Source: Blakeslea trispora
Lineage: Eukaryota; Mucoromycota; Mucoromycetes; Mucorales; Choanephoraceae
DNA: 64,000 nucleotides
Assembly (NCBI GenBank): GCA_025331445.1
Contig: JAIWNE010000038.1
Location: forward strand, 62,001 to 126,000
Reading direction: 5' to 3'
Shown: one piece after another, positions 5,526 to 37,997 of the stretch
Layout of the letters: the number at the start of each line of letters is the position of its first letter
Position numbering within the stretch: the stretch's first letter is position 1
The notes under the pieces: generated by a model
Database searches by the model: none
The model's input: the letters and a program-made list of their open reading frames with translations, nothing else
What the model was told of the DNA's origin: nothing
Made by a program: the position numbers and the translations under genes

Positions 5526-6802
5526 TTATAATTTAGAGTTAGAGTATCGACAGAAGCCACGAAGATCTTCCAAATAGACACTGTTGCAAGCATCAACTAT
5601 TCTTGAAGTCAAAGTCTCCTCCTTCAGCAACTTCTCTCTCTTCACTTTACTCTTAACCACAGACCAGAACTGCTCAATTGGATTAAGCTCAGGGGAATAA
5701 GGTGGAAGATACACGCATCCATATCCTCTACTAACAATCAGCTTCTCAATCTGGTCTGAAATATGGATAGGAGCATTGTCCATAATAAGGTAATGCCCTT
5801 TGAATTGCTCATGTCGATCAAGTACATCCAATGTATCAGAAATGAAATTGGAATAATGACCAAGAACAGTTCCTACTGTCTTTTTTGCCTTTGGCTCACC
5901 TGTGACCTTTCTTTTCTTTGAGCTTTCTTGATAGGGTACTCTAACCTTCATGTTAATAACACCCCTGCGACGATATGGCTCCCCCAAAACAGTGATTGTT
6001 CTAGCTCTCGTCTTTGGCTGAATAACAGTAGCTCGAGTACCCTTAGTTGACCAGGCCATAGTACGGCTCAAGTTGATATGGAAAGCAGACTCGTCAATGA
6101 AAACACAGTTGCTCATGAAGTTGATGTCTGTTTGTATCAAATTGGTTTGCCCATTGAAAGCGTGCTTCAATGCTGCGAGGAGAGAATTTCTTTCTTAAGG
6201 TTCAAAGTGGGCTTTCTTAATTGTAAGAGCATAGTCATTGACCATAAAATCATGGACAGCAGTTTTTGCAATCTAGAGTCCTTCAAATTGGCCGGCGAGG
6301 CTTTCCATTGCTTCATTTTACAGTGGCTCTAGGGTTTTTGCTGTATTTCTGGAGCAAGAAACCTTTGTGCTCCTCATTGAGAATTTTTGGTCGCCCAACT
6401 TTCTTCTTCTTGAGCTAGCTCAGGTTATTCAATTCTCTTTTGAGCTGCGTCTTCCTCTTTCTTGAACCAATAGTGAGAGGTACGCTTAGGTACGTCCAAC
6501 TCTTTTGCTGCTTCAGGAACTGTATAGCCTTTAACGTAGACGAGGTGGAAAAAGCGCTCCTTTTTCTCGTCACTATGTCTGGTGTATTTGCGCTGACTAT
6601 GGCCTTGATCAGCGACAATCTCGGCTTTGACAATTTTCATTTTCTCCAATCTTTCAGGAGGCTTCAAGTCCATGTAGGTATCATAGTTGGTGACGTCCTC
6701 AAGCGGAAACTGCTCGTTATCAACTTCCATTTCAACTGGTTCATTGCCGTACTCATCAAATACACTGCCCTTTCCGTCTTCTTGAAAAAATTTGAGGTTC
6801 AT
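5526..6802 (-). pseudogene. Tc1/mariner (DDE_3-type) transposase, degenerate
   Basis: The minus-strand reading starts at 6802 with an acidic leader, then a helix-turn-helix DNA-binding region (KKERFFHLVYVKGYTVPEA, then DVPKRTSHYWFKKE). A middle part follows containing KKVGRPKILNEEHKGF and IAKTAVHDFMVNDYALTI, then the catalytic domain. Catalytic landmarks are CVFIDESAFH (first Asp), YLIMDNAPIH (second Asp) and LPPYSPELNPIEQFW (Glu about 35 residues later), typical of this superfamily. The last 214 residues (6170-5526) are open. The middle is broken: an in-frame TAG at 6417-6415, at least one frame change near the end of the N-terminal frame (about 6425-6470), another after RATVK (about 6300-6320), and two more stops (in GL*IAK and EP*ERN). 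The protein cannot be made from this copy. Confidence 0.85.
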
Positions 6803-33463: not shown

Positions 33464-33505
33464 TAACGTGCCTCTGAACTTAAAACTACAAAAATATTGT
33501 TAATA

Positions 33506-33646
33506 TTCAAAAATCTTCACATAAAAACTTTCATATAAAAAATAAAAAACTGAGTGTATAACTCTGTTGAGAAAACGTTTTTGAACACGATGATCCACTC
33601 AGTTTCTGGAATTTCATATAAAAGTTTTCATGTAAAGGTTTTTGAA
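33506..33646. repeat. Subterminal foldback in the HDEST transposon
   Basis: The arms 33506-33556 and 33595-33646 are inverted copies of about 50 bp (about 80% match by eye; the innermost AAACTGAGTG/CACTCAGTTT is exact). They enclose a ~38-nt loop. It may be a transposase-binding site or a small element nested in the larger one. Confidence 0.8.
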
Positions 33647-33881
33647 AGTTGATCGGTTTTTCAAAATTTAAGCTGGGGAGATATAGAGGGGACCAAGGAA
33701 ATGAAACAGGTCAATGTACTGGTAAAGATTTGAAAGACCGTTAAGTATATTTGTGTAACAAATGGAAGCCAATAAAAACTGTGTATAGCAATTTTTGTGT
33801 TCCCTTCAGATTATGGTGATTATTTTTAGGAACTGACATCCATATAGCAAAAGTTTTCCTTTATCCAACTTATTATTAAAT

Positions 33882-36005
33882 ATGCCCTTCCCAAGCAAAA
33901 GAAAAGCAAGATTCAACGCCCAGAAAAAGGACGCTAAAGGAAAATTCTTGAAAGAGAATGTTCCTGAAGTTATTTCTGAAGAAGTAATTGAAATAAATGA
34001 AGATTGGGAAACTTTGGGTGGTGAAATGGATATGTCAGCCCTTTCCCGCCTTACAGATAGTGTATCCTCTGGTGAGAAGAGAAAGATCCACTACACTAAG
34101 GACTCTAGAACCATAAAGTGGAGAAGAAAAGTGGAGTCCAGCAAGGTAGACCCCAAATCTACCTTGTTCAACTTTGGTATCACTGTTGTCAACAGTGATA
34201 CCCAGGAACAAAATGAAGACGATGAGCAGGATGCTGAAGATAGGCTGACCCATCCTAAGAGGGAATTGATCAAGATCAGCAATTGCATTGAATTGTTGCG
34301 TGAGCAGGTGAAGCCTGAAATGAACCAGAGAATGGAAGGTAGCTCAGTAGGTTCATACAACCAATGCCGCTTGTACTCTGTTCTCATGTACTTTGAACTT
34401 CGTTTGAAAGGAATGAAGATGGGCAAGGCATCCCAGAGAGTATCTAAACTTTTCTGGCCAAGTTACTCTAAGGATGCCCGCTCAAGAAGCATCATGAGTT
34501 GGGTAAAGGAATACCTTGAGCACAATAATCTCTCCGATCATAGCCAAGGTGTTCACACCAAAAGGCAATCCTTCTTGAGTCACAACGACGTAAAGATGCA
34601 AGTCGTAGAGTATATGCAGAGAACAAAGCCTGCTGAAAGATTGCTTGTGGCCATCAAGGACTTCATTGAAACTAAAGTAATCCCTTCTTCTTTGGGTGTG
34701 CCTGGAACTGTTGCCATCTCTACCATCAGCAAGTACTTGCATGAATGGGGCTACTCTTATGGCAACAAGAAAGGCCTCTTCTTTGATGGACATGAAAGAG
34801 AAGATGTGGTGAAGTACGGAAAAGAATGGGCTCTACGAATGGTAGACTACATGCATAGATCCGAGTTTTACGAGGGAGATCAAGAAGAAAATGTTCTTGA
34901 ACCAGTTCTTTTGGAGGGTGAAGAGAAGGTTGTATTCGTCACTCATGACGAATCAACCTTTTACGCCAACGATGGCAAAAATGACATTTGGAGTTTGGAA
35001 GGTGAATCTTTCATCCGCAAAAAGGGGCCTGGATCCTCCATTATGGTAAGTGAATTCCAGTGCCCCTGTCATGGGACGATGAAGTTGGGTGGATGAACCT
35101 CCCGTAAGCTTTTCAAAGCTGGAGAGAGTAGAGACGGTTGGTGGACTCATAAAGACATGGTCTCTCAGCTGGACTATGTCATTGGGCTGTTCGAAAACTT
35201 ACATCCTAACTGCCGAGCTGTATTCCTGTTTGACAACAGTTCAAACCATGGTGCTTACAGTGATGACGCATTGGTTGTAAGTCGTATGACTCTCAACGAG
35301 AAACCATGGTCTCTGACTGATAAATATCAGTTCAGAGACACAACCGTCAAACTCTCGACCGGTGAGCTTCTTCATCAGTCATTTTTTTATGAGAAAGAAA
35401 TCTCTTCTCATGACTCAAAAGGTAGACCCAAAAACAAACGAGTCAGATATTTTAAAGGTAAATAGCACATGTATTTCCGAAGCAAACTCTTCTAACATCT
35501 TTACAATAACAGGAATCAAACGAATTCTTGAAGAACGTGGCCAATGGCTTGGTGACCTTGAAGGCAAGGTATGGAAACTTCGTTGTGGTGCTGCTGAGCC
35601 AGGTTTGAAGTCTATGTGCTGCGCTTCCCATTTCCTGGGAAGTAGAGTGGATTTTGCAGCTCAAAAGACTGCTTTACAAGAAGCAGTAGAAAATGCTGGT
35701 CACATTTTCGAACTTTATCCAAAATATTACTGCGAATGCAATTGGAGACGCATTAAGAATTGGCCAAGAGAGAGGCTAGATTGAGATGTGATGACACATT
35801 CAAGTCTCTCGAAAAGAACATCCCCATGTTTTTGGACAATGCAGGAGATGTCAAGAAAATACGAAGATTTTTTCAACGTTGCATGAACTATATCGAAGCA
35901 TATAGTAAGCACGACGATGGCAGAGAAATAGCAAAGGAGTTGAAGAAATTTGTAAAAAAAAAGTGTTTGTCCCATAGAAAAGTGAGAGCTCCTCAAGACA
36001 TTTAA
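33882..36005 (+). pseudogene. HDEST-type DDE transposase, broken by one stop and one frameshift
   Basis: The reading starts MPFPSKRKARFNAQKK and runs open for 404 codons through a basic N-terminal region, a region with RVSKLFWPSYSKDARSRSIM and KYLHEWGYSYGNKKGL (DNA-binding-like), to VVFVTHDESTFYANDGK, the presumed first catalytic Asp. KKGPGSSIMVSEFQCPCHG follows. An in-frame TGA at 35094-35096 interrupts, but the same frame continues with LFKAGESRDGWW and VFLFDNSSNHGAYSDDALV (second Asp). An intron follows (donor at about 35457, acceptor ending 35513), then GIKRILEERGQW, the Cys-rich MCCASHFL and YPKYYCECN. At about 35740-35762 the frame changes by one base exactly where the CN..(I/L)E third acidic residue is expected. 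The 3' end (AKREARLRCDDTF... to TAA at 36005) is intact in the new frame. Confidence 0.85.
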
Positions 36006-36202
36006 AAGTTAAAAAAGAAAAAAGAAAACACTTGATGAAGGATTGCTCTCAATTGTGATTTAATTATGCTGCTCAAAGAAAAGAAATCCCCAAAAAGATT
36101 GACAGGTCGTATGATCGATCCATACCAAAAGCAAAAAAAAATGAGTCCTCAAAAAATGAAACAATTTCTTGTTTTTGTGGTTTTAAGTTCAGAGGCACGT
36201 TA

Positions 36203-37388: not shown

Positions 37389-37997
37389 ATGTCAAAACAA
37401 ACCATCGTTGTTCTTATCTCGGGCTCAGGAACCAACTTGCAAGCATTGATTGATGCAACACAAGAAGGAAGATTAAAAGCCAACATTGTCGGTGTAATTT
37501 CGAACCGAAAGACCGCCTATGGACTTGAACGCGCCAAGAAGGCAGGCATTCCTACCGAAACTTATTCTCTAAAGCAGTTCAAAGATCAAGGAAAATCCCG
37601 AGTCGATTTTGACATACACCTCGCCAAATCGATTCAGGAGCACTATAAGCCAGATTTGGTCATTTTGGCAGGTTTCATGCACATCCTATCACCCGAGTTT
37701 CTGTCGTTCTTTACGAACAATGTCATGAACCTGCATCCTGCTTTACCTGGTCAATTCGATGGTGCTCATGCTATTGAACGTGCTTATGAAGCTTATAAGA
37801 AGGGAGAGATTGAGCATACGGGTATCATGGTACACAAGGTCATTGCTGATGTGGATCGTGGCCAAGTGATTCTTCAACAAAAAGTGCCTATTTATGAGAC
37901 AGATACATTGGAAGACTTAGAGGAACGCATTCACTCATTTGAGCATAAGCTCATTGTGGAAGGTGCTCAAGTCTTTTTGAATGAGCTTGAAGCATAA
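37389..37997 (+). CDS. ADE8: Phosphoribosylglycinamide formyltransferase (GART)
   Basis: Third enzyme of de novo purine synthesis; it transfers a formyl group from 10-formyl-THF to GAR. A single exon of 202 residues, the normal length of the monofunctional enzyme. The N-terminal phosphate loop is VVLISGSGTNLQAL. The folate and catalytic region reads DLVILAGFMHILSPEF, then NVMNLHPALPGQFDG with catalytic Asn and His, and HKVIADVDRGQVI with the catalytic Asp. It is stand-alone, as in other fungi, rather than fused to AIRS/GARS as in animals. T-rich promoter DNA precedes the ATG. It converges with SRP72, with 67 bp between stops. Confidence 0.96.
   Translation: MSKQTIVVLISGSGTNLQALIDATQEGRLKANIVGVISNRKTAYGLERAKKAGIPTETYSLKQFKDQGKSRVDFDIHLAKSIQEHYKPDLVILAGFMHILSPEFLSFFTNNVMNLHPALPGQFDGAHAIERAYEAYKKGEIEHTGIMVHKVIADVDRGQVILQQKVPIYETDTLEDLEERIHSFEHKLIVEGAQVFLNELEA

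Follow-up and report, generated by a model that had tools for sequence, protein, structure and literature searches.

A TA-flanked, non-autonomous transposon of a long-spacer DDE family in Blakeslea trispora

Results

Positions 33466..36200 of a 64,000-nucleotide stretch of the Blakeslea trispora genome (contig JAIWNE010000038.1, positions 62,001 to 126,000 of the forward strand; the whole stretch is hereafter called the window) hold a complete, TA-flanked transposon of 2735 bp, read on the + strand, with a damaged transposase gene. We consider it likely, with a probability of about 0.85, that this element is a complete non-autonomous cut-and-paste transposon of the IS630-Tc1-mariner (ITm) group, that it comes from a DDE transposase family with a long spacer between the second catalytic Asp and the catalytic Glu, and that an intact relative moved it in trans. 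The element is a member of what we call subfamily A, and within it of a lineage that bears a lesion over the Glu motif.

The limits of the element are well defined. Its left terminal inverted repeat (33466..33494, + strand) pairs with the right one (36172..36200, - strand) at 28 of 29 positions, while the best of 2000 shuffles of the element reached 15. A TA lies on either side (33464..33465 and 36201..36202), as it does around other subfamily A copies. The first-pass annotation of this sequence had drawn the same boundaries, flanks and length; its matched ends were real, but the good match spans 29 bp and not the 35 it gave. Nor are the ends confined to this locus. In the 37.2-Mb genome (285 contigs), a 23-nt probe of end plus TA, allowing up to two mismatches, occurred 58 times, and its backward control never. 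At 93% identity or more over most of its length, a search with the window element found at least 24 matches, one of them the element itself, along with fragments and more distant copies; the best 40 of 121 candidates were scored, and these counts are lower bounds. Both ends are kept in 20 of the 31 subfamily A loci that we fetched (L001-L030 and L040), and all 20 have TA on both sides. Two pairs, L016/L018 and L022/L023, each represent one insertion within an inverted duplication, so that the copies mark 18 independent sites rather than 20. Copies sharing ends and target duplications had been proposed as support for the element, and so had empty sites in related strains; we found an empty site within this genome. 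When the flanks of the L005 insertion were joined over one TA, all 40 listed places (the best 40 of 131 candidates) aligned without a break from position 9 through 197 or beyond, across the junction at 113, and the four that we fetched (L061-L064) read a single TA.

The L005 target is a repeat with at least 40 copies (L061-L064 and 36 further) that are 98-99% identical over the probe. We take the helicase frame adjoining L005 to be Helitron-like, and the repeat at its target likewise. A preference for palindromic targets, hinted at by L005 and L001, was rejected: the mean score was 3.13 over 24 sites versus 3.20 over the window's 4302 TA sites, and the observed mean was reached in 12149 of 20000 resamples.

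The window copy cannot be autonomous. Its transposase gene, on the + strand, had been read as a single long one; a transposase gene it is, but in two exons and not in working form. Exon 1 (33882..35457) contains the first catalytic Asp codon (34947..34949, within HDEST) and the second (35232..35234, within FDNSSNH), both placed by the family alignment, and is interrupted in frame by a TGA at 35094-35096. An inferred GT..AG intron of 55 nt (35458..35512), proposed from the reading frame and in agreement with a corresponding intron in the subfamily B copy L032, would separate it from exon 2 (35513..35784), which a frameshift shortens to a stop at 35782-35784. The cause lies over the Glu motif, where 4 nt are lost amid clustered substitutions (35744..35759), a lesion common to 12 copies. 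The HDEST and FDNSSNH motifs that had been predicted are thus present, but CN(x)E is absent from this copy, which reads CNWRRIKNWPRERLD and then stops; the rest of the C-terminal coding sequence follows out of frame (35760..36005). Because B loci have CNWIEM here and lesion-free A copies keep the corresponding stretch intact or nearly so, the motif is family-wide and was lost in the window copy. A Pfam search with three pieces of the window gene returned two below-cut-off matches for the first piece and none for the other two. With its TGA, lesion and frameshift, and with its triad broken at the Glu, the copy is a complete but non-working transposon that is unable to make active enzyme.

The lesion has nevertheless multiplied. 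It occurs at 12 places genome-wide (10 exact, two with one mismatch; none for the backward control). Measured against the majority of lesion copies L001-L011 over ~2.74 kb, L001-L008 differ by 7-13 substitutions each (0.3-0.5%), L009 and L010 by 34 each, and L011 by 64. The first eight occupy eight unrelated sites; among the 20 complete A copies, megablast found related flanks only in the two duplicated pairs, both without the lesion. Given eight lesion copies at unrelated sites with so little divergence, the lineage multiplied while catalytically dead, presumably moved in trans. Across the 25 A loci examined (L001-L025), exon 1 is intact in two, L006 and L007, both with the lesion; exon 2 is full-length in eight, and no locus has both exons intact. 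A copies have also exchanged sequence: along its length each is a patchwork of two sequence types, such as gene conversion or template switching might leave. In L011 the lesion sits within a 3' block joined to a different body, and in L028 it is found on a body that is more diverged.

Two further subfamilies retain open genes. Subfamily B comprises nine loci, ~72-74% identical in DNA to the window element and with end sequences of their own; TA lies on both sides of all seven with both ends and on the right of the other two. Only L032 is open through both exons, and it encodes DD153E. The six loci of subfamily D have end sequences unlike those of A and B, with TA on both sides of five; in the sixth, L045, the right end is missing. 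L044, L045, L046 and L048 each keep an open frame of 720 codons in one exon, and the 99.9% identity of L046 and L048 suggests recent movement. Over the first 21 positions, the ends of B match those of A at 16 and the ends of D at 14. The expectation that other copies share the same boundaries is therefore borne out within subfamily A but not in B and D, where the ends differ and the TA flanks stay the same. At the protein level, searching the genome returned at least 160 exon-level matches at E 1e-5 (best 127 of 341 candidates), which makes the family a large one in this genome. A further subfamily is suggested by numerous 180-codon exon matches with 64% protein identity, and a more distant relative (~65% DNA identity) adjoins an A copy at L021:3289-4839 (- strand).

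The protein family extends well beyond this genome. It is common in Mucorales and also present in Glomeromycotina, Basidiomycota, a truffle, a chytrid, an aphelid and oomycetes. The claim that it is common as an unnamed protein in the first two groups was right about the groups, but some members are labelled 'Tc1-like transposase DDE domain-containing protein' in their source records. The catalytic triad is conserved in relatives of the window copy. In an alignment of 82 sequences, of which 66 served for the spacer and Cys columns, the second Asp and the Glu are 112-166 residues apart in 65 of 66 (153 in L032; 92 in the remaining one, P0116). The intervening segment, described beforehand as Cys-rich, does contain Cys but not universally, each of three Cys columns being kept in 49 of 66. 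None of 38 pattern matches in viral contigs was confirmed as a family relative. We found no name for the family in the open-access literature searched, Repbase being outside that search, and the accessible portions of PMC7928374, PMC11075540, PMC12730594, PMC3627910 and PMC7325037 name no such family. Each Mucorales genome is reported to contain over 200 Tc1/mariner copies (PMC7928374).

Comparison with known DDE superfamilies, which had been recommended for placing the family, assigns it to the ITm group by its profile matches and by a fold predicted to be mariner-like. At E <= 0.01, DDE_3 matches 51 of the 65 members; an IS630 model also matches, below its cut-off. The predicted structure of a family homologue has a mariner-like fold, its 11 best structure matches all being mariner/Tc1 and well above the rest. 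The Glu region aligns with Tc1-like enzymes of the same genome (profile alignment E 6.3e-8, probability 94.7). The TA target duplication typical of the group flanks all 20 complete A copies and all those with both ends in B (seven) and D (five), and the empty site has a single TA. In searches of PDB, L032 as a sequence gave one weak, unrelated match, and the family profile gave Sleeping Beauty at E 0.15 with two unrelated matches. The spacing of 34-41 residues that defines Tc1/mariner in the narrow sense (DD34-41E/D) is far exceeded.

We also compared the family with Sailor, which PMC8533490 defines by DD78-111E, mostly TATA duplications and the motifs VVYLDET, VIIMDNA and HCELNPIEL; in the open-access literature searched, that paper alone combined the string HCELN with transposase. 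A first Sailor motif scan found no match, and a looser one gave seven stretches, including L068, which encodes a Sailor-like protein. As a stand-in for the published sequences, we used 120 listed relatives of 1197, seeded by L068. Spacing was measurable in 46 of the 120 (one at 77, 45 at 81-85). The profiles of the family and of this Sailor set align over 409 columns (probability 99.8, E 1.2e-27), compared with E 4.2e-9 for family and Tc1 and E 1.4e-21 for Sailor and Tc1, the Tc1 profile consisting of four sequences, all from this genome. In an unrooted tree (56 sequences, 281 columns), the family (29), the Sailor set (23) and the Tc1-like proteins (4) form splits with support of 100. The sampled mean path is shorter between Sailor and Tc1 (3.7) than between Sailor and the family (4.2); this weighs against a simple sister relation, and a tree of three unrooted groups shows no sister order. 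L067 and L071 (pieces of the family) and L068 lie in contigs filed under a bacterial metagenome-assembled genome and two animal symbionts, and are probably eukaryotic DNA in those assemblies.

Other features of the window can be described more briefly. A subterminal inverted repeat of two 69-nt arms, 75% complementary, occupies 33506..33646 (DNA fold z -3.84). The B copy L032 has one at L032:1104-1255 (49-nt arms, 98% complementary, 54-nt loop), and none comparable was found in the D copy L044. It may give rise to a hairpin transcript or serve as a binding site. Downstream, the first open frame to reach 130 codons or more (37389-37997, 202 aa) begins ~1.2 kb beyond the insertion and, we assume, resembles phosphoribosylglycinamide formyltransferase. 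A further DDE_3 (Tc1-like) stretch lies in a 222-codon open frame at 5610-5828 (- strand; contig 67610-67828).

Discussion

Our results describe a transposon that is structurally complete and yet apparently dependent on an enzyme made elsewhere. By homology, the family transposase would use helix-turn-helix domains at its N-terminus to bind the ~29-bp ends, excise the element and join it at a TA, which would thereby be duplicated; we infer end binding, excision chemistry and present activity. Because the window copy cannot make active enzyme, it and its lineage most likely owe their movement to an enzyme supplied in trans by an intact relative. That enzyme may have come from an A copy now lost or unassembled, from a B-type copy such as L032, or from subfamily D. 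Since the ends of B resemble those of A more closely than do the ends of D, a lost A enzyme or a B enzyme would be somewhat better candidates.

Several observations weigh against this interpretation. The Glu column is gapped in 11 of the 82 aligned sequences, and five more are without the triad. The IS630 model matches five of five members tested, all under the model's cut-off; P0003 has no Pfam family match, and L032 matches DDE_3 below the cut-off. Neither the B ends (16 of 21) nor the D ends (14) match those of A in full. Gene conversion appears to have moved the lesion onto at least L011 and L028, and might have done so for more copies; assembly chimeras may also be present. An account in which older A insertions were overwritten by conversion, or were spread by segmental duplication, with no transposition after the lesion arose, would draw on this mosaicism and on the two insertions that were duplicated along with their flanks. 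We regard it as unlikely, as L001-L008 agree over their full length, end exactly at TA and have unrelated flanks.

The placement of the family can be contested in a similar manner. That it is the published Sailor (DD82E) superfamily in fungal form would fit the strong profile alignment, the HCExNxIE common to both around the Glu (HC[EK].N.IE in 164 of 221 family proteins; HCECNWIE, a variant, in L032), and the report in PMC8533490 of Sailor with variable spacing from 12 fungal species. It nonetheless seems quite improbable. All but P0116 of the 66 spacers fall outside 78-111 (and the Sailor set outside the family's range, at 77-85), the target is TA alone in A, B and D rather than TATA, and in place of VVYLDET and VIIMDNA the family has [HQ]DE[STC] (185 of 221) and FDxSxNH-type motifs (172 of 221), with HDES and FDxSxNH in none of the 120 Sailor-set proteins. 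In the unrooted tree, which has the Sailor set in place of the published sequences, the two form separate splits with support of 100. In fungi, TA is also the duplicated target of Harbinger-type or CMC-type lineages, and CMC-type enzymes are described as having Cys/His motifs in the segment from the second Asp to the Glu (PMC12730594). Membership in either is very improbable, given the DDE_3 and IS630 matches, the alignment of the Glu region with Tc1-like enzymes and the mariner/Tc1 identity of the 11 best structure matches; CMC-type (EnSpm/Transib) or Harbinger-type cores were absent from the listed structure matches, which is no exclusion.

Placement within the ITm group leaves room for a bolder and more speculative view, to which we give limited credence. 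The family could be a separate ITm superfamily beside Sailor, spread over fungi and oomycetes, whose transposase has, between the second Asp and the Glu, an additional domain that contains Cys and is predicted to form strands. Its Glu-less, trans-moved lineage would have become the successful one, and L006 and L007, with exon 1 intact, could make a DNA-binding yet dead protein that damps active copies.

Whichever rank it deserves, a protein family mostly filed as hypothetical or unnamed in the sources searched now has ends, a target site and an empty site attached to it, and therefore a way to be annotated. A long-spacer lineage is added next to Sailor, which bears on how far the mariner catalytic core tolerates large inserts. 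Furthermore, one genome offers a case of a lineage that multiplied without catalytic function, alongside relatives whose reading frames are open.

Among known systems, Sailor is the closer of the two profiles compared, sharing HCExNxIE, an enlarged spacer between the second Asp and the Glu, and the DDE_3 fold family. It differs in a shorter spacer (78-111 versus 112-166), a mostly TATA target versus TA, VVYLDET and VIIMDNA versus HDES and FDNSxNH, and element ends in GT or CC versus AC or CA. The Tc1/mariner superfamily (Mos1, Sleeping Beauty, SETMAR) has a spacer of 34-41 residues (PMC8533490) and proteins about half as long as the family's; its four representatives in this genome form a separate split of the tree. 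Hypothetical proteins filed without a name from Mucorales and other fungi, such as P0003 of Mucor saturninus and P0004 of Rhizopus delemar, are members of the family itself, carried in the databases searched without ends or target sites, unlike the element described here.
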